A DNA stretch of 45,188 nt from Rhodospirillales bacterium (GTDB lineage Bacteria > Pseudomonadota > Alphaproteobacteria > Rhodospirillales > Defluviicoccaceae): positions 1 through 45,188 of the forward strand of contig JALOTH010000042.1 in assembly GCA_025458035.1 (NCBI GenBank), written 5' to 3'. The notes beneath the pieces were generated by a model that had not been told where the DNA came from, ran no database searches, and worked only from the letters and a program-made list of their open reading frames with translations. Positions 7,559 to 22,302 of this stretch are shown here, piece by piece. Numbering within the stretch: position 1 is the stretch's first letter; each line of letters opens with the position of its first letter. A program made the translations under genes and the position numbers.

Positions 7559-10180
7559 CTACAGGGCGCGGCGGCGGGAAACATCGAGGCTCGCGTTCCA
7601 AGCGGCGAAGTCCGCCGCCGGCAGCGGTCGACTGAATAGAAAGCCTTGCGCCAAGTGGCAGCCCCGGCTGCGGATGAACTCCAACTCGTGATCGGTTTCA
7701 ACTCCTTCAGCAACCACCCGGATCCCCATGCGATGGGCCATCGCCAGGATGGCCTCGACGACCGTCGCTTTCTTGGCATCGCCATCGACGCCCCGGATGA
7801 ATGACCGATCAATTTTGACCGTGTCAACCGGCAGATCGGTCAGATAGGAAAGACAGGAATAGCCGGTGCCGAAGTCGTCGAGGGCAACGCGAACGCCAAG
7901 CCGGTCAAGGGCACGAATGGATGCGCCCGCTTCCCCGAGATCCTGCATCAGGCAGCCCTCGGTGATCTCCAGCTCAAGACAGTGCGGCGGCAGCGCGCTC
8001 GCCGCCAGCACCTTTTCCAGCCGCGCGAACAGACTCCGGGTGCGCAGCTGGCGGGCCGAGATGTTGACCGACAGCGTCAGTCGGGAGAGCCCGGCCGCGC
8101 GCCAGGCAACCAGCTGATCGCACGCGGCGCCGAGCAGCCAGTCCCCGAGCGCAACGATCAGGCCAGTATCCTCGGCGAGGGGGATGAATACCTCCGGGTT
8201 CAGCGCACCGAGCTCGGGGCTGTGCCAGCGCATCAGCGCCTCCGCGCCTTCGGTCTGGCCCGACCGCAGGTCGACGATGGGCTGATAGTGGATCGCCAAC
8301 TCGCCGCGCTCGAGGGCATGCACCAAGTGGCTTTCGATCCGCATGCGCTCCATCGCCCGCTGGTTCAGCTCCGGCGTGAAGTACTGGAACGTCCGCCGTC
8401 CTTCCTCCTTCGCCCGATACATCGCCGCATCGGCGTTCTGCATCAGTTGCTGCGGGTCGTCGGAGTCGTCGGGGAAGATCGTGACGCCAATCGACGCGGT
8501 GACGAACGCCTCGTGTCGGTCCAGCTGGAACGGTTGCGAAAACGCGGCAAGGATCTTGTGCACCACCGGTTCGCTGTGGGCGGCGGTGGCAAGCTTCGGC
8601 AGGATGACGGTGAATTCGTCGCCGCCGAGGCGGGCAACCGTATCTTCTTCGCGCACGCAGCCGCGCAACCGTTCCGCCGCCTGTCGAAGGAGTTGATCGC
8701 CAATGGCGTGGCCCCACGTATCGTTGATTTTCTTGAAGTTATCGAGATCTAAAAACAGCACGCCGCCCCGGTGATGGTGGCGCGAGGCGCTGACGACGGC
8801 GCTGCGCAGCCGATCCAGTGCCAGCACGCGGTTGGGCAGTCCCGTGACTTCGTCATAGTTGGCACGCCGGTGCAGGCGCTCCTCGTAGGCCTTGCGCAGG
8901 GTGATGTCGGCGATCGTCGATTGCAGCGCCGGCCGCCCTTCCCACACCACCTGCTGCGAAACCATTTCGACGGAGATCCTCTCGCCGTCACGTCGCACGC
9001 AGGTGTATTCGTCGATATCGACACCCGCGCCATCGGCGGCCGGCTGTTCATGGCGCAACCGTCCCATCTCGGGCGGGACAAACAGCTCATCGAGGCGGCG
9101 AAGGGCCAGAATGTCCGCCGGTGCTTCATAACCGAAGATGCGCGCGCAGGTCTGGTTAGCGAACACGGGCACGCCGTCACATTCGATGACAATGCCGAGC
9201 ACCGAGCCCTCGACCAGGCTGCGGAAGCGAAGCTCGCTTTCGCGCAGTTCGCGCTCCCATCGCTTGCGTTCGGTGATGTCAACGGAGACGGTGACGATCT
9301 GTTCAACCGAGCCGTCATCGGCGCGGAGCGGGGCTTTCGTCGTCAGCAGCACGCGGGCGTCACCATCGCGATCAACGACCGTTTCCTCGACGTCGCTCAA
9401 CCCGCGCGCCGTCGCGACAACCTGCCGGTCCCAGGCGAGATGGCGCTCGCCATAATCGCCGTCGGGAAACAACCGGTCCTGTGCCACGCCGATTGCCGCG
9501 TCCGGGTCGACACGGAAAAAGCACTGATGGCCGTCGTTGAGGACGAGGACGCGGCCGTCGGGGTCACTGGCCCGCATCAAGGCCGGCACCGTATCGATCA
9601 TCCGGCGCAACTGCCGCTCGCGTCTCAGGATCTCCGCGGCGTGCTGTCGAGTCGCCGTCTCAAGCTCGCCCTCGATGCGCAACGCCCGCTCGCGGAGCGC
9701 CACCTGCTGACGCCGCAGCATCAACAGGTTACGGGCGCGGGTGACGAACTCGCGGTGATCCACGGGGCTGAGCAGAAAATCGCTGGCTCCTGCATCCAGC
9801 GCCCGGTAGCGATAGTCCCGATCCTCGAAGGCGGTGATGACGATGATCGGCACGTCGGCTGCCACCGCTGTCTGCCGGCAATTGCGCACGAAGTCTTCCC
9901 CGTTCATGCCCGGCATCACGAAGTCGGTGACGATCAGATCGGGGCACAATGTTGGCAGCGCGCTTAGGGCCTGCTCCGCCCGCTCAAAGACGGCGACAGC
10001 AATAGCCGGTTGGATGAGTTCGGCAAAGCGGGCGAGAATTTTCAGATTGATCGGCTGGTCGTCGATAATGACGATGCTGGCCGTCGCCGCCGCGCCGTTG
10101 AGCGTGGTCACAGCGTTGCCGCCGGCCGAACTCGAAAACGTCGTGACAGGGTCGTACCGCGGCGGCGTGTCCTCAGGCAT
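7559..10180 (-). CDS. Response regulator: REC-PAS-PAS-GGDEF-EAL
   Basis: An 873-residue cytoplasmic cyclic-di-GMP enzyme. Domains in order: receiver (about 33-152, phospho-acceptor Asp86 in LIVTDFVMPG), a short coiled coil, PAS1 (about 188-310), PAS2 (about 315-430), GGDEF (about 435-600) and EAL (about 610-865). The GGDEF active site is intact (GGDEF 519-523). The inhibitory RxxD site (Arg510/Asp513) sits exactly five residues before it. The EAL motif (647-649) and the downstream DDFGTGYS, KIDRSF and EGVE motifs are also intact. Both cyclase and phosphodiesterase activity are therefore possible. It diverges from rpfF, and the rpfC-type kinase lies on the other side of rpfF, suggesting it is the output of the DSF pathway. 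Confidence 0.92.
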   Translation of the reverse strand: MPEDTPPRYDPVTTFSSSAGGNAVTTLNGAAATASIVIIDDQPINLKILARFAELIQPAIAVAVFERAEQALSALPTLCPDLIVTDFVMPGMNGEDFVRNCRQTAVAADVPIIVITAFEDRDYRYRALDAGASDFLLSPVDHREFVTRARNLLMLRRQQVALRERALRIEGELETATRQHAAEILRRERQLRRMIDTVPALMRASDPDGRVLVLNDGHQCFFRVDPDAAIGVAQDRLFPDGDYGERHLAWDRQVVATARGLSDVEETVVDRDGDARVLLTTKAPLRADDGSVEQIVTVSVDITERKRWERELRESELRFRSLVEGSVLGIVIECDGVPVFANQTCARIFGYEAPADILALRRLDELFVPPEMGRLRHEQPAADGAGVDIDEYTCVRRDGERISVEMVSQQVVWEGRPALQSTIADITLRKAYEERLHRRANYDEVTGLPNRVLALDRLRSAVVSASRHHHRGGVLFLDLDNFKKINDTWGHAIGDQLLRQAAERLRGCVREEDTVARLGGDEFTVILPKLATAAHSEPVVHKILAAFSQPFQLDRHEAFVTASIGVTIFPDDSDDPQQLMQNADAAMYRAKEEGRRTFQYFTPELNQRAMERMRIESHLVHALERGELAIHYQPIVDLRSGQTEGAEALMRWHSPELGALNPEVFIPLAEDTGLIVALGDWLLGAACDQLVAWRAAGLSRLTLSVNISARQLRTRSLFARLEKVLAASALPPHCLELEITEGCLMQDLGEAGASIRALDRLGVRVALDDFGTGYSCLSYLTDLPVDTVKIDRSFIRGVDGDAKKATVVEAILAMAHRMGIRVVAEGVETDHELEFIRSRGCHLAQGFLFSRPLPAADFAAWNASLDVSRRRAL

Positions 10181-15970: not shown

Positions 15971-17370
15971 GCCCGGCGCGCCGCTACGGCGAGAGTGGTC
16001 GACCGCGGCGTTGCCGCAGGTTCGGCAAGGATCTGCTCAAGCGTCGAATAAACCTCGGCGAGCGGCGCCGACTCGGACTTTTTCTGAGACAGGAAGGCAT
16101 CGAGAGCGGGCATCAGGCGCACGGCGCGGTCAACCTCGGGATCACTGCCGGACTGGTAGGCGCCGAGCCGGATCAGCTCCGCCATATCGTCGTAAACGGC
16201 CAGCAGCCGCCGGGCGCGGGCGATCACATCGTTCTCCGCGTCCGTGTTGCAGCGGGGAAGCGAGCGCGAAACGCTCTTCAGAATATTGATGGCGGGATAC
16301 CGGCCTCGTTCGGCGATCGCCCGATCGAGCACCACGTGGCCGTCGAGAATACCGCGCACCGCGTCGGCGATCGGCTCGTTGTGATCGTCGCCATCGACGA
16401 GAACGGTGAACAGGCCGGTAATGCTGCCGACGTCGTCGCAGCCGGGGCCGGCGCGCTCGAGCAGGCGGGGCAACTCGGCGAAGACCGACGGCGTATACCC
16501 TTTCGTCGCCGGAGGCTCGCCGGCGGCAAGGCCGATCTCGCGCTGGGCCAACGCCAACCGCGTCACGCTATCCAGCAGGCAGAGAACGTGACGGCCCTGA
16601 TCGCGGAAATACTCGGCAACGGCGAGCGTCGTGTGGGCTGCCTGGCGGCGTAGCGCTGGCGCCTGATCGGAAGTGGCGACAACAACGACACTGCGGGCAA
16701 GGCCCTCCGCACCGAGATCGTCCTCGATGAACTCGCGCGCCTCACGCCCCCGCTCACCGATGAGGCCGATGACGTTGACATCGGCCGACGCATAGCGGGC
16801 GATCATCGACAGCAGGCTCGACTTGCCGACACCGGAGCCGGCAAAGATCCCGAGCCGCTGCCCGCGGCAGCAGGTGAGGAATGCGTTCATCGCGCGCACG
16901 CCGACGTCGATCTTGGCGCCGACGCGGCCGCGGCGGTGGGCGGCGGGAGGCGCGGCGCGCGGTGGACGCAGCGCATCGCCGGCCGGCAGCGGCCCCAAGC
17001 CATCGGCGGGACGACCGAGACCGTCGATAACGCGGCCAATCCAGCCATCGCCAACCGCCAGACCGCCATCGCCGCGCCGCAGTTCGACGCGCGTGCCGGG
17101 ACGGATCCCGTCAGCCGCACCGAAGGGCACGATCAGCGAGCGGCCGTCGCGAAATCCGAAGACCTCTCCCTCGAGGGCGCCATCGGCGGCGTGATCGGCA
17201 CCGATCCGCAAGCGGCAGCGGTCGCCCACGGCGGCGTGACCGGCGAAACCGGCGACCTCAAGGCTCAGCCCGACGACGCTGGAGACGTGCCCGTGAACGG
17301 TAAAATCGGGCAGTTGGTTGATGCGGTTCGACGTTGAAGGCGTTGATGTCACGGGATCACGCGACTCCAA
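15967..17370 (-). CDS. fliI: Flagellum-specific export ATPase FliI
   Basis: A 467-residue F1-type ATPase that powers substrate unfolding and delivery in the flagellar type III export apparatus. The N-terminal beta-barrel spans about residues 25-90. Walker A is FAGSGVGKSSLL near 175, Walker B is VLCLLDSVTRLA near 260, and the ATPase core is followed by a C-terminal helical domain. The VIGLIGERGREAREFIEDDL segment is typical of FliI. The longest frame starts at TTG 17370 without a clear ribosome binding site; GTG 17352 is an alternative. It diverges from ctrA across about 210 bases. Confidence 0.88.
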   Translation of the reverse strand: MESRDPVTSTPSTSNRINQLPDFTVHGHVSSVVGLSLEVAGFAGHAAVGDRCRLRIGADHAADGALEGEVFGFRDGRSLIVPFGAADGIRPGTRVELRRGDGGLAVGDGWIGRVIDGLGRPADGLGPLPAGDALRPPRAAPPAAHRRGRVGAKIDVGVRAMNAFLTCCRGQRLGIFAGSGVGKSSLLSMIARYASADVNVIGLIGERGREAREFIEDDLGAEGLARSVVVVATSDQAPALRRQAAHTTLAVAEYFRDQGRHVLCLLDSVTRLALAQREIGLAAGEPPATKGYTPSVFAELPRLLERAGPGCDDVGSITGLFTVLVDGDDHNEPIADAVRGILDGHVVLDRAIAERGRYPAINILKSVSRSLPRCNTDAENDVIARARRLLAVYDDMAELIRLGAYQSGSDPEVDRAVRLMPALDAFLSQKKSESAPLAEVYSTLEQILAEPAATPRSTTLAVAARRA

Positions 17371-17420
17371 TGTACGGGCCGGCCAGTCCGGTTGATCGCC
17401 GCAGCCTGCGCCGGCAAACG

Positions 17421-17435
17421 TTAAGCCGCGGTAAA
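17421..17435. promoter_or_regulatory. Candidate CtrA box between fliI and ctrA
   Basis: TTAA-GCCGCGG-TAAA, one mismatch from the CtrA consensus TTAA-N7-TTAA. It lies 149 bases before the ctrA start and 51 before the longest fliI start, where either CtrA autoregulation or control of a class II flagellar operon would act. A GANTC methylation site (GACTC, 17363-17367) is also in this interval. Function is inference. Confidence 0.45.
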
Positions 17436-17583
17436 AGCTGGACAGACAGCCCGCATACTCGTATAAGATGTATTAGTATCGAGAATATATTTTTTTGGTT
17501 GCATACCCCTCAAATGCGTACTATCTTCGCTGGCAGATTTAATCAGTTATCCACCCTTTAGGTTGCAAACGGGGGCTTTCCAG

Positions 17584-18294
17584 ATGCGTGTACTGCTGAT
17601 TGAAGACGATGCGACGACGACCCGCGCCGTGGAGCTGATGCTGAAGGGTCAGGGCATGGTGGTTGATGCCACGCACCTCGGTGAGGACGGCCTCGACCTC
17701 GCCAAGATCTACGACTACGATATTGTCATTCTCGACCTTGGCCTGCCCGACATGGAGGGCATGGAAGTCCTGCGCCGCCTGCGCAACGCCCGGGTTGGCA
17801 CGCCTGTCATCATCCTGTCCGGATCAACCCATGCCGATATCAAGGTGCGCGGTCTCGGCTGCGGCGCCGATGACTATTTGGCCAAGCCCTTCGACAAGAA
17901 GGAACTCATCGCCCGCATCCACGCCATCGTCCGCCGATCGAAGGGACACGCCCAGTCGGTGATCCGTACCGGCCGCCTCGCCGTCAACCTCGCCGCGCGC
18001 ACCGTTGAGGTCGACGGCAAGCCGCTGCACCTGACCGGCAAGGAGTACGGGATCATCGAACTCCTCAGCCTGCGCAAGGGCACCACGCTGACCAAGGAAA
18101 TGTTCCTCAATCACCTTTATGGGGGCATCGACGAGCCGGAACTGAAGATCGTCGATGTCTTCATCTGCAAGCTGCGCAAGAAACTGGCGACAGCGACCCA
18201 CAACGAGCAGTACATCGAAACGGTGTGGGGTCGCGGCTACGTGCTGCGCGACCCGGTTGGCCACGGCGAGACGGCGACGGCGGCGGCGGCGTGA
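17584..18294 (+). CDS. ctrA: Cell-cycle response regulator CtrA
   Basis: A 236-residue OmpR-type response regulator. The receiver (residues 1-115) carries the acidic pocket Glu7/Asp8/Asp9 and phospho-acceptor Asp51 ([13 protein letters not shown]); Lys sits in [10 protein letters not shown]. The winged helix (about 130-230) includes [17 protein letters not shown] and the GRGYVLRDP end typical of CtrA. CtrA controls flagellar, chemotaxis and division genes in alphaproteobacteria through the CckA-ChpT phosphorelay. The start at 17584 gives the canonical [10 protein letters not shown] CtrA-like box lies upstream. Confidence 0.93.
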
Positions 18295-19149: not shown

Positions 19150-20592
19150 ATGACCCTCTCGCAAACGGCCATCGTCGTCCTCGCCGCCGGCCTCGGAACA
19201 CGCATGAAATCCCGCCGGCCGAAGGTGATGCATCCGCTCGCCGGTCGCCCGATGATCGCACACCTGATTGGAACGCTGCGGGAACTGGACCCGAACCGGA
19301 TCGTCGTCGTCATCGGACCCGACATGCCGGACGTCGCCGCGGCGGTCGCACCGTGGCCGGTGGCGGTGCAGCAGGATCGGCTCGGCACCGGTCATGCCGT
19401 CCTTGCGGCCGGGGACCGCCTGCGCGATTTCGCCGGCGACGTTCTCGTCGTCTATGGCGATACGCCGTTGCTGACGTCGGCTACCCTGCGCCGCATGCTG
19501 GAAGCCCGCCATTCACCCCCGTATCCCGCCGTCGTCGTCCTCGGCTTTGAGCCGACGGAGCCCGGCGGCTACGGCCGCCTGATTGTCGGCGCAGGCAACA
19601 GCCTCGAGGCGATCATCGAAGCCAAGGACGCCAGCGCCGAGCAGCTTTCGATCCGTCTGTGCAACTCGGGCGTCATGGCCATTGCCGGGGACCGGCTGTT
19701 TGGCCTGCTCGATCGCTTGAGCAACGACAATGCGAAGGGCGAATACTATCTGACCGACATCGTCAGCCTCGCCCGTCGCGACGGGCTGCCTTGCGGCTTT
19801 GTCATCGGCGACGAACAGGAATTGATCGGCATTAACAGCCGCTCCGAACTCGCCAGCGCGGAAAGCTTCGTTCAGAACGGCCTGCGCCGCCGCGCGATGG
19901 AGGGCGGCGCAACCCTGACTGCGCCCGAAACCGTATTTTTTTCCTGGGACACGCGGCTCGGCCGCGACGTCACCGTTGGCCCGCACGTCGTCTTTGGTCC
20001 TGGCGTCGAGGTCGCCGACGACGTTGACATCCGCGCCTTCTGCCACATCGAGGGCGCAACGGTGGCGGCGGGCGCGCAAGTCGGTCCGTTTGCGCGACTG
20101 CGCCCGGGTGCGCGCATCGGTCCTGCCGCCCATGTCGGCAATTTCGTCGAGATCAAGAACGCCAGCATCGAGGACGGCGCCAAGGTCAATCACCTGACCT
20201 ACATCGGCGATGCCCGCATCGGCGCCAAGGCGAACATCGGTGCCGGCACGATCACCTGCAATTACGACGGCTTTTTCAAGGCGCACACCGACATCGGCGC
20301 CGGCGCCTTCATCGGCTCCAACAGCGCGCTGGTTGCGCCGGTGACCATCGGCGATGGCGCCATCATCGGTGCCGGCAGCGCCATAGCCCGCGACGTGCCG
20401 GCCGACGCGCTGGTACTCACCCGCGGCCAACACACCGTCAAGGCGGGTTGGGCCAGTGCGTTCCGCCGCCGCCAGCGGGCTGCCGCGGCGGGCGCCGATC
20501 ATGAAGCCGTGCTGACCGGCGAACAGGATCGCCAGTGCGAACGCGCCGTCGAGCCGTTCGAGCGCTGCCTCCACTACTCATCGATGGCTTGA
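19150..20592 (+). CDS. glmU: Bifunctional GlmU, with an abnormal C-terminal tail
   Basis: GlmU acetylates glucosamine-1-phosphate and then makes UDP-GlcNAc for peptidoglycan and lipid A. The N-terminal uridyltransferase has LAAGLGTRMKS (10-20), DRLGTGHA and VYGDTPLL. The C-terminal left-handed beta-helix carries hexapeptide repeats and the ARIGPAAHVGNFVEIKN catalytic region. Both domains look intact. From 20471 (after WASAFRRR) to 20569 the reading frame is antisense to part of glmS, so roughly the last 40 residues of this 480-residue frame are not GlmU sequence. The natural stop has been lost in this rearrangement or in assembly. Activity is likely unaffected, as GlmU tails are variable. Confidence 0.85.
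   Translation: MTLSQTAIVVLAAGLGTRMKSRRPKVMHPLAGRPMIAHLIGTLRELDPNRIVVVIGPDMPDVAAAVAPWPVAVQQDRLGTGHAVLAAGDRLRDFAGDVLVVYGDTPLLTSATLRRMLEARHSPPYPAVVVLGFEPTEPGGYGRLIVGAGNSLEAIIEAKDASAEQLSIRLCNSGVMAIAGDRLFGLLDRLSNDNAKGEYYLTDIVSLARRDGLPCGFVIGDEQELIGINSRSELASAESFVQNGLRRRAMEGGATLTAPETVFFSWDTRLGRDVTVGPHVVFGPGVEVADDVDIRAFCHIEGATVAAGAQVGPFARLRPGARIGPAAHVGNFVEIKNASIEDGAKVNHLTYIGDARIGAKANIGAGTITCNYDGFFKAHTDIGAGAFIGSNSALVAPVTIGDGAIIGAGSAIARDVPADALVLTRGQHTVKAGWASAFRRRQRAAAAGADHEAVLTGEQDRQCERAVEPFERCLHYSSMA
20471..20569 (-). repeat. Left arm of perfect 99-bp inverted repeat
   Basis: These 99 bases are the exact reverse complement of 20966-21064. They are antisense to the glmS segment ending in the GARRGSPLA codons. 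The copy sits at the junction between glmU and glmS, exactly where the end of glmU, any spacer and the first dozen or so codons of glmS should be. The arms are separated by 396 bases of glmS sequence. Confidence 0.95.
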
Positions 20593-22302
20593 AACGGCTG
20601 GAGTATCGCGGCTACGACTCCGCGGGCATCGCCACCTTGAGCAACGGCAGCATCGTCCGGCGGCGGGCGCAGGGCAAACTCGCCGCCCTGGAAGCGGTTC
20701 TCGCCACCGAACCGGTCGAGGGCACCATCGGTATCGGTCACACCCGCTGGGCGACCCATGGTGCACCGACCGAACAGAACGCTCATCCCCACGCGGACGA
20801 TCGGGTCTGTCTCGTCCACAACGGGATTATCGAGAACTTTCACGCGTTGCGCCGTGAGCTGACGGCAAGCGGCGTCCGCTTCCAGACAGAGACCGACACC
20901 GAGGTCGTCGTCCACCTGATCAGCAGCCATCTCGCCGCAGGCATGACGCCTCAGCAAGCCACGGCGGCAGCGCTCGAACGGCTCGACGGCGCGTTCGCAC
21001 TGGCGATCCTGTTCGCCGGTCAGCACGGCTTCATGATCGGCGCCCGCCGCGGCAGCCCGCTGGCTGGCGCCACTGACGCGGCGGATCTGCTATCTGGAGG
21101 AGGGTGACTGGGCCGAAGTCACCTGCGATGGAGCAATCGTGCACGACGCCAGCGGGGCGATCGTCGAACGGCCAGTCAAGTTGACCGCCACCTCGGGGGC
21201 GTTGATCGGCAAGGGCAATTTCCCGCACTTCATGCTGAAGGAGATCTACGAGCAACCTTCGGTAGTGGGCGACTGCCTGCACAGCCTGCTCAATCCCTGG
21301 AACGAACGAATGGCCTTGCCGGCACTGCCGTTCGATCCGACGCGGATCAACCGCATCACCCTCATCGGCTGCGGCACGTCCTATCATGCCGCGCTCGTCG
21401 CCCGATACTGGCTTGAAGGCATTGCCCGGGTGCCGACGGAGGTCGATATCGCGTCCGAGTTCCGCTACCGCGGGCTGGATATGGCCCCGGGGGGACTGTC
21501 GGTTTTCATTTCCCAGTCCGGTGAAACGGCCGACACGCTGGCCGCGATGGCTTATGCCCGACGCCAGGGGCAGTCGACGCTGGCCATCGTCAACGTGCCG
21601 GAAAGCTCGATGGCGCGCGCTGCCGATGCCAGCCTGTTAACCCATGCCGGGCCGGAAATCGGCGTCGCTTCGACGAAGGCGTTCACCACCCAACTGACAG
21701 TCCTCGCCTGCTTTGCCATCGCCGTCGCCGCGGCGCGGGGTACGATCGACCGCGATGGTGAGCGCCGATTGGCACGGGCATTGACGGAGGTGCCGAGCCG
21801 CATCAACGAGGTCCTCAATCACGACCAACGGCTGGCGGAGATCGCCCGCGACATCGTCGAGGCCCGCGACGTGCTCTACCTCGGCCGCGGCACCGGCTAT
21901 CCGATCGCCCTTGAAGGCGCCCTGAAACTGAAAGAGATCAGCTATATCCATGCGGAGGGTTACGCCGCCGGCGAAATGAAGCACGGGCCAATCGCGCTGA
22001 TCGACGAAAATATGCCGATCATCGTCATCGCCCCGTCCGACCCGCTGTTCGACAAGACCGCGTCGAACATGCAGGAGGTGATCGCCCGCGGCGGCCGCGT
22101 GGTGTTTCTCTCCGATGCGCCAGGCATCGACAAACTGGGCGAAGTGGCGGCGGCAACGGTCGAACTGCCGCAGGTCGACCCCTTCGTGGCGCCCATTCTC
22201 TACACGATCCCGGTTCAGCTCCTCGCCTACCACGTCGCCGTGCTGAAGGGCACCGACGTCGATCAGCCGCGCAACCTCGCCAAGAGCGTCACGGTGGAAT
22301 AG
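20570..22302 (+). pseudogene. glmS: GlmS (glucosamine-6-phosphate synthase), disrupted
   Basis: GlmS makes glucosamine-6-phosphate from fructose-6-phosphate and glutamine. The frame resumes at PLLIDGLKRLEYRGYDSAG, so the MCGIVGI start with the catalytic N-terminal cysteine is absent. The glutaminase part continues to GARRGSPLA (21064). About 20 codons expected there are missing, and the frame shifts; the first frame stops at 21105-21107. The second frame resumes at LTRRICYLEEGDW (about 21077) and runs on. Both SIS domains of the isomerase part are complete (GCGTSYHA, SQSGETADTL, AEGYAAGEMKHGPIAL, ending PRNLAKSVTVE). As written no active glutaminase can be made; a GTG at 21139 could open an isomerase-only protein. 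The gene is normally essential, so an assembly fault is possible. Confidence 0.85.
20966..21064 (+). repeat. Right arm of perfect 99-bp inverted repeat
   Basis: This is the native copy, in frame within the glutaminase domain of glmS, and identical over 99 bases to the reverse complement of 20471-20569. Its right end (21064) is exactly where the coding sequence loses about 20 codons and shifts frame, so both rearrangement breakpoints fall at the same end of the repeat unit. Confidence 0.95.

Follow-up and report, generated by a model that had tools for sequence, protein, structure and literature searches.

A broken glmS in a Rhodospirillales draft genome, very probably the product of a local assembly error

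The glmU–glmS locus and its two breakpoints

The window analyzed here, a stretch of 45,188 nucleotides, makes up all of contig 116 in a draft genome that comprises 3,125,520 bases in 239 contigs at 96% completeness. It carries glmU and, after it, a glmS that is broken at two places, with the following features along the locus:

19150 to 20470, forward strand: glmU, apparently intact until its last codons (Pfam Hexapep and NTP transferase domains; alignment with relatives)
20471 to 20569, forward strand: misplaced 99-bp block where the tail of glmU and the start of glmS should stand (reverse complement of 20966–21064; alignment)
20570 to 20965, forward strand: apparently genuine glmS segment, with the amidotransferase domain from residue 15 (PF13522; 69–80% identity to 12 relatives, like the neighbouring segments)
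20966 to 21064, forward strand: native copy of the 99-bp block within glmS, its last base forming the edge of the second probable misjoin (73–84% identity to 12 relatives; alignment)
21064 to 21065, forward strand: junction at which 50 bp of glmS are missing, with about 2 bp of ambiguity, and the frame shifts (alignment of six relatives; ORFs)
21065 to 22302, forward strand: remainder of glmS in another frame, with two SIS isomerase domains (PF01380; 82–85% protein identity to four same-genus genomes)

A previous inspection of this DNA (hereafter, the sequence-only reading) had described bases 20471–20569 as the exact reverse complement of 20966–21064, and sequence comparison bears this out: the match runs over 99 bp with a mismatch directly beyond each end, and it reaches 102 nt at 99% when extended less strictly. 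Folding a 594-bp piece as DNA simply restated the hairpin. When we aligned the locus with six relatives, the inverted copy was found to occupy the place of the glmU tail and of GlmS residues 1–14, including the residue that we take to be the catalytic Cys, which confirms the claim that the inverted copy removes this N-terminal residue. Directly after the native copy, exactly 50 alignment columns (~17 codons) are absent, and the first glmS ORF ends at 21107 owing to the frameshift at 21064/21065. The frame shift and the loss at this point stand as first described, with ~17 codons lost where about 20 had been given. The alignment and the flanks place both breakpoints at one and the same terminal base of the 99-mer, in agreement with the earlier statement that they share one end of the repeat. 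As assembled, the locus lacks the N-terminal catalytic Cys and the single open frame of ~607 aa expected of a functional GlmS, a glucosamine-6-phosphate synthase, and it retains the two SIS isomerase domains (PF01380, in two stretches). In all essentials, the earlier observation is right.

We also compared the locus, segment by segment, with 12 relatives. Local identity was 71–79% for the glmU tail, 69–80% for the glmS segment, 73–84% for the native block, and 67–81% for the rest of glmS; with the misplaced block at 20471–20569, none of the 12 relatives aligned over more than 37 bp. Since each of these segments is about equally similar to the relatives, everything but the inverted copy resembles, by this measure, the organism's own glmU–glmS. 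A foreign middle segment from a distant donor was rejected on the same data, as identity does not shift across the breakpoints, in a test that is blind to a donor from a close strain. A 21-base string spanning the junction gave one match to viral contigs, which we took as chance.

A reverse-complement copy that replaces native sequence is one outcome of template switching, and the order of glmU, inverted copy, and glmS fits the geometry of a switch out and a switch back. The sequence-only reading had offered a rearrangement of this kind (fold-back or template switch). On this account, replication would have left its strand at 21064 for the opposite one, run back over 99 bases, and returned at 20570, with 50 bp lost at the same spot, so that glmS would be knocked out in the population. 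It shares with short-range template-switch mutations (PMC7954356) the jump of replication to a nearby template. Unlike those, the copy here is as long as the apparent assembly overlap and has its breakpoint in common with a deletion.

glmS elsewhere in the genome and among relatives

glmS, a cell-wall gene, is normally essential, which speaks against its having been knocked out by a template switch. A second copy, raised as a possibility in the sequence-only reading, was sought in the draft assembly by profile, protein, and DNA-pattern searches, and none was found. PF13522 matched the glmS locus and a 493-aa frame on C108, presumably another amidotransferase. A search with the GlmS C-terminal protein returned the glmS locus and a 27%-identical stretch on C171, and the SIS family matched the glmS locus twice, C171, and, over a short length, C77. 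The C171 stretch (L004, contig 171; 10979–11389, minus strand) belongs to a SIS-domain frame of 349 aa, 27% identical to part of the isomerase half of GlmS and probably a paralogue. Two degenerate patterns, which detect 25 and 19 of 28 relatives, revealed no missing glmS pieces elsewhere in the assembly; this counts against an assembly error, but these pieces may be unassembled. That these searches found no intact glmS in the assembly also counts in favour of a template switch in the cell.

Among 31 genomes (this one and 30 relatives), a glmS search gave matches in 30, the one in G025 being a distant SIS hit only (E 2.6e-5); the same search gave no match in G006, which is 79% complete. An intact frame starting with MCG was present at 26 of the 28 relatives' loci, the two misses being short loci of 2991 and 2624 bases, and at 75 of 80 GTDB loci. 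The wide occurrence of intact glmS in relatives, with no second copy found here, counts in favour of an assembly error. There is no good reason to infer either a loss of glmS or a dependence on amino sugars.

Exact repeats, contig ends, and a similar lesion in hisF

To see the 99-bp repeat against the rest of the draft, we surveyed the window and 120 other contig stretches. Of these 121, 26 were fully masked, which left 95 readable stretches with 1,210,282 bases (39% of the genome; 32 of the stretches were taken to 20 kb only). Within the window itself, a search with an exact seed of 20 reported no repeat of at least 40 bp except the 99-bp inverted pair, and a DNA search of the genome with the 99-bp sequence returned the two known sites and no third. 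Only one exact inverted pair of at least 30 bp within 3 kb, the 20471/20966 pair, was present in the 1.21 Mb surveyed, whereas neither control had any: 211 kb of the same-genus genome G001, and 518 kb from 78 GTDB loci (2 of the 80 contain N and were omitted). Because it is the sole such pair and both controls have none, the 99-bp inverted repeat is far beyond chance.

Whether the 99-bp length belongs to the genome or to the assembly was the decisive question. Among the 95 stretches there were 24 exact repeat pairs of at least 40 bp, four of them at 99 bp, one at 100 bp, and the others from 42 to 96 bp, and no exact repeat exceeded 100 bp. Likewise, 1,200,972 positions held six recurrent 99-mers but not a single recurrent 101-mer. 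Besides the pair in the window, every repeat of 99–100 bp (four of four) has one copy exactly at a contig end, as would be expected if repeats of this length arise from the assembly:

Start of L085, with the start of L109
End of L098
Start of L102
End of L102

We further analyzed the 158 visible contig ends, 11 of which match another stretch exactly over at least 25 bp; five of these matches are 99–100 bp long, and the rest measure 96, 76, 47, 43, 39, and 30 bp. A small control, the 17 readable stretches of G001, yielded one exact repeat of at least 40 bp, with a length of 42 bp. De Bruijn graph assembly with node overlaps of 99 bases leaves just such a ceiling at 99–100 bp, and the glmS repeat has, at 99 bp, the length of this overlap as read from the contigs. 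As for L102 (contig 63), its start (1–99) matches L226 at 716–814 and appears transposase-like by eye, and its end (8760–8859) is the reverse complement of its own 280–379.

Overlaps of this kind are described in the COBRA report (PMC10914622). In its simulations, the end sequences at the vast majority of repeat-caused breaks equal maxK for metaSPAdes and MEGAHIT and maxK-1 for IDBA_UD, and COBRA applied 99 bp to k lists ending in 99 or 100. The present draft resembles the contig-end overlaps described there in that 99 bp dominates the long exact repeats, forms their ceiling, and is found at contig ends on either strand. It differs in that the glmS block is found in inverted form within a contig, flanked by two probable misjoins.

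One of the contig ends listed above belongs to a second broken gene. On contig 59 (L098), hisF (8231–9103) is split into two frames; its bases 8650–8748 recur exactly at 9005–9103, the last 99 bases of the contig, and a 16-bp stretch is doubled directly after 8748, where the frame is broken, which is what would result if two fragments with a 16-bp overlap were simply set one behind the other. Beyond the 99 bp, a single mismatch in the copy is followed by ~20 further matching bases. We found no other hisF in this genome, and the tested part of hisF was matched in all 10 relatives searched, at 80–87% identity and in open frames of 257 to 546 aa. The lesion is similar, not identical, to that in glmS: the hisF copy is direct and at a contig end, whereas the glmS copy is inverted and inside a contig. 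Such a lesion in a second gene also counts against a template switch at glmS. Both of these conserved genes, glmS and hisF, are interrupted where a 99-bp block ends, which points to the assembly and not to the cell.

Doublings like that in hisF were examined more widely and used only as a hint. The 1.21 Mb contain 38 exact tandem doublings of 11–70 bp (31 per Mb), compared with 1 in 0.21 Mb for the same-genus genome and 5 in 0.52 Mb for public loci, which are conserved gene neighbourhoods and no fair sample of a genome. Some of these doublings may represent unmerged contig overlaps. Besides hisF, we inspected eight doublings with lengths not divisible by three; frames were listed for all eight and Pfam was run on seven (L201 was left out). 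On L236 (contig 118; 17081–17846), a DUF218 match (17081–17770) reaches only position 104 of the 133 in the profile and breaks off at a 16-bp doubling (17637–17669), and by eye the protein continues in the next frame past the doubling. Pfam gave no match on the short second piece, and the frame change at this doubling is only suggestive. In L041 and L106 a Pfam domain was found that does not span the doubling, and the frames scanned in L099, L116, L074, and L234 gave no Pfam match.

The inverted copy could also stem from chimeric inverted molecules, formed during library preparation or whole-genome amplification and assembled as if real. Such chimeras typically have closely spaced inverted joins with hardly any microhomology, and the mismatch carried by the hisF copy would suit them as well. 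However, chimera formation gives no reason for a length of exactly 99 bases or for sharing the base of the deletion, and an amplified sample should show more than one close inverted pair of at least 30 bp in 1.21 Mb. We consider this origin very unlikely.

A probable false join or badly closed gap in glmS

The break in glmS is, with high probability, a local assembly error, either a false join or a badly closed gap, and the cell most likely has an intact glmU–glmS pair. A false join left by a k-mer assembler, which the sequence-only reading had proposed next to the rearrangement, is now strongly supported, because 99–100 bp is both the ceiling of exact repeats and the commonest long overlap of contig ends in this draft, and because hisF carries a similar lesion. 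Moreover, a breakpoint base common to the inverted copy and the deletion is expected of a terminal graph node and would be unexpected for two separate mutations.

The error may have arisen as follows. The assembler's pieces would have overlapped by 99 bases, with k = 99, or with maxk = 100 where k-1 is left. A graph break at the right end of 20966–21064 would have left this 99-mer as the last node of a short piece of glmS. Three false joins could then have produced the contig. The first would link glmU to the reverse strand of the terminal 99-mer, the second this reversed 99-mer to the left edge of the glmS piece, and the third the right edge of that piece to the remainder of glmS, leaving out 50 bp. 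A plain unitig is not known to run through one 99-mer node twice, so that some subsequent step of joining or gap closing has to be assumed. Seen directly in the contigs are the ceiling at 99–100 bp, its coincidence with contig ends, the common breakpoint base, and the similar lesion in hisF; the graph break at 21064 and the assembler and step behind the joins are inferred.

Weighed against the assembly error, the template switch is very improbable. It would call for the 50-bp loss as a further event at the very same base, and the copy would equal the assembly overlap in length only by coincidence. Length and breakpoints that were independent of the assembly parameters would have spoken for it, and they are not; with the copy as long as the overlap and both breakpoints on one base, the fold-back or template-switch reading is not supported.

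Local assembly errors have been described in metagenome scaffolds, where they are recognized by the lack of perfect read support (PMC7674155). The present case resembles those in that a local stretch of the scaffold is wrong, and it differs in being known from the contig sequence alone. A literature search on palindromic local assembly errors in metagenome-assembled genomes and their curation found none.

Should the template switch be true after all, which we hold to be a very slim chance, the sole glmS would be inactivated, and the cell would import amino sugars or make glucosamine-6-phosphate in another way. Most likely, the glmS break is of little import as biology. It calls for caution over apparent losses of conserved genes in draft genomes, such as those of glmS and hisF here, which can be recognized as probable artefacts, even with no reads at hand, from a breakpoint repeat that has the length of the assembly's exact-repeat ceiling and of its contig-end overlap.
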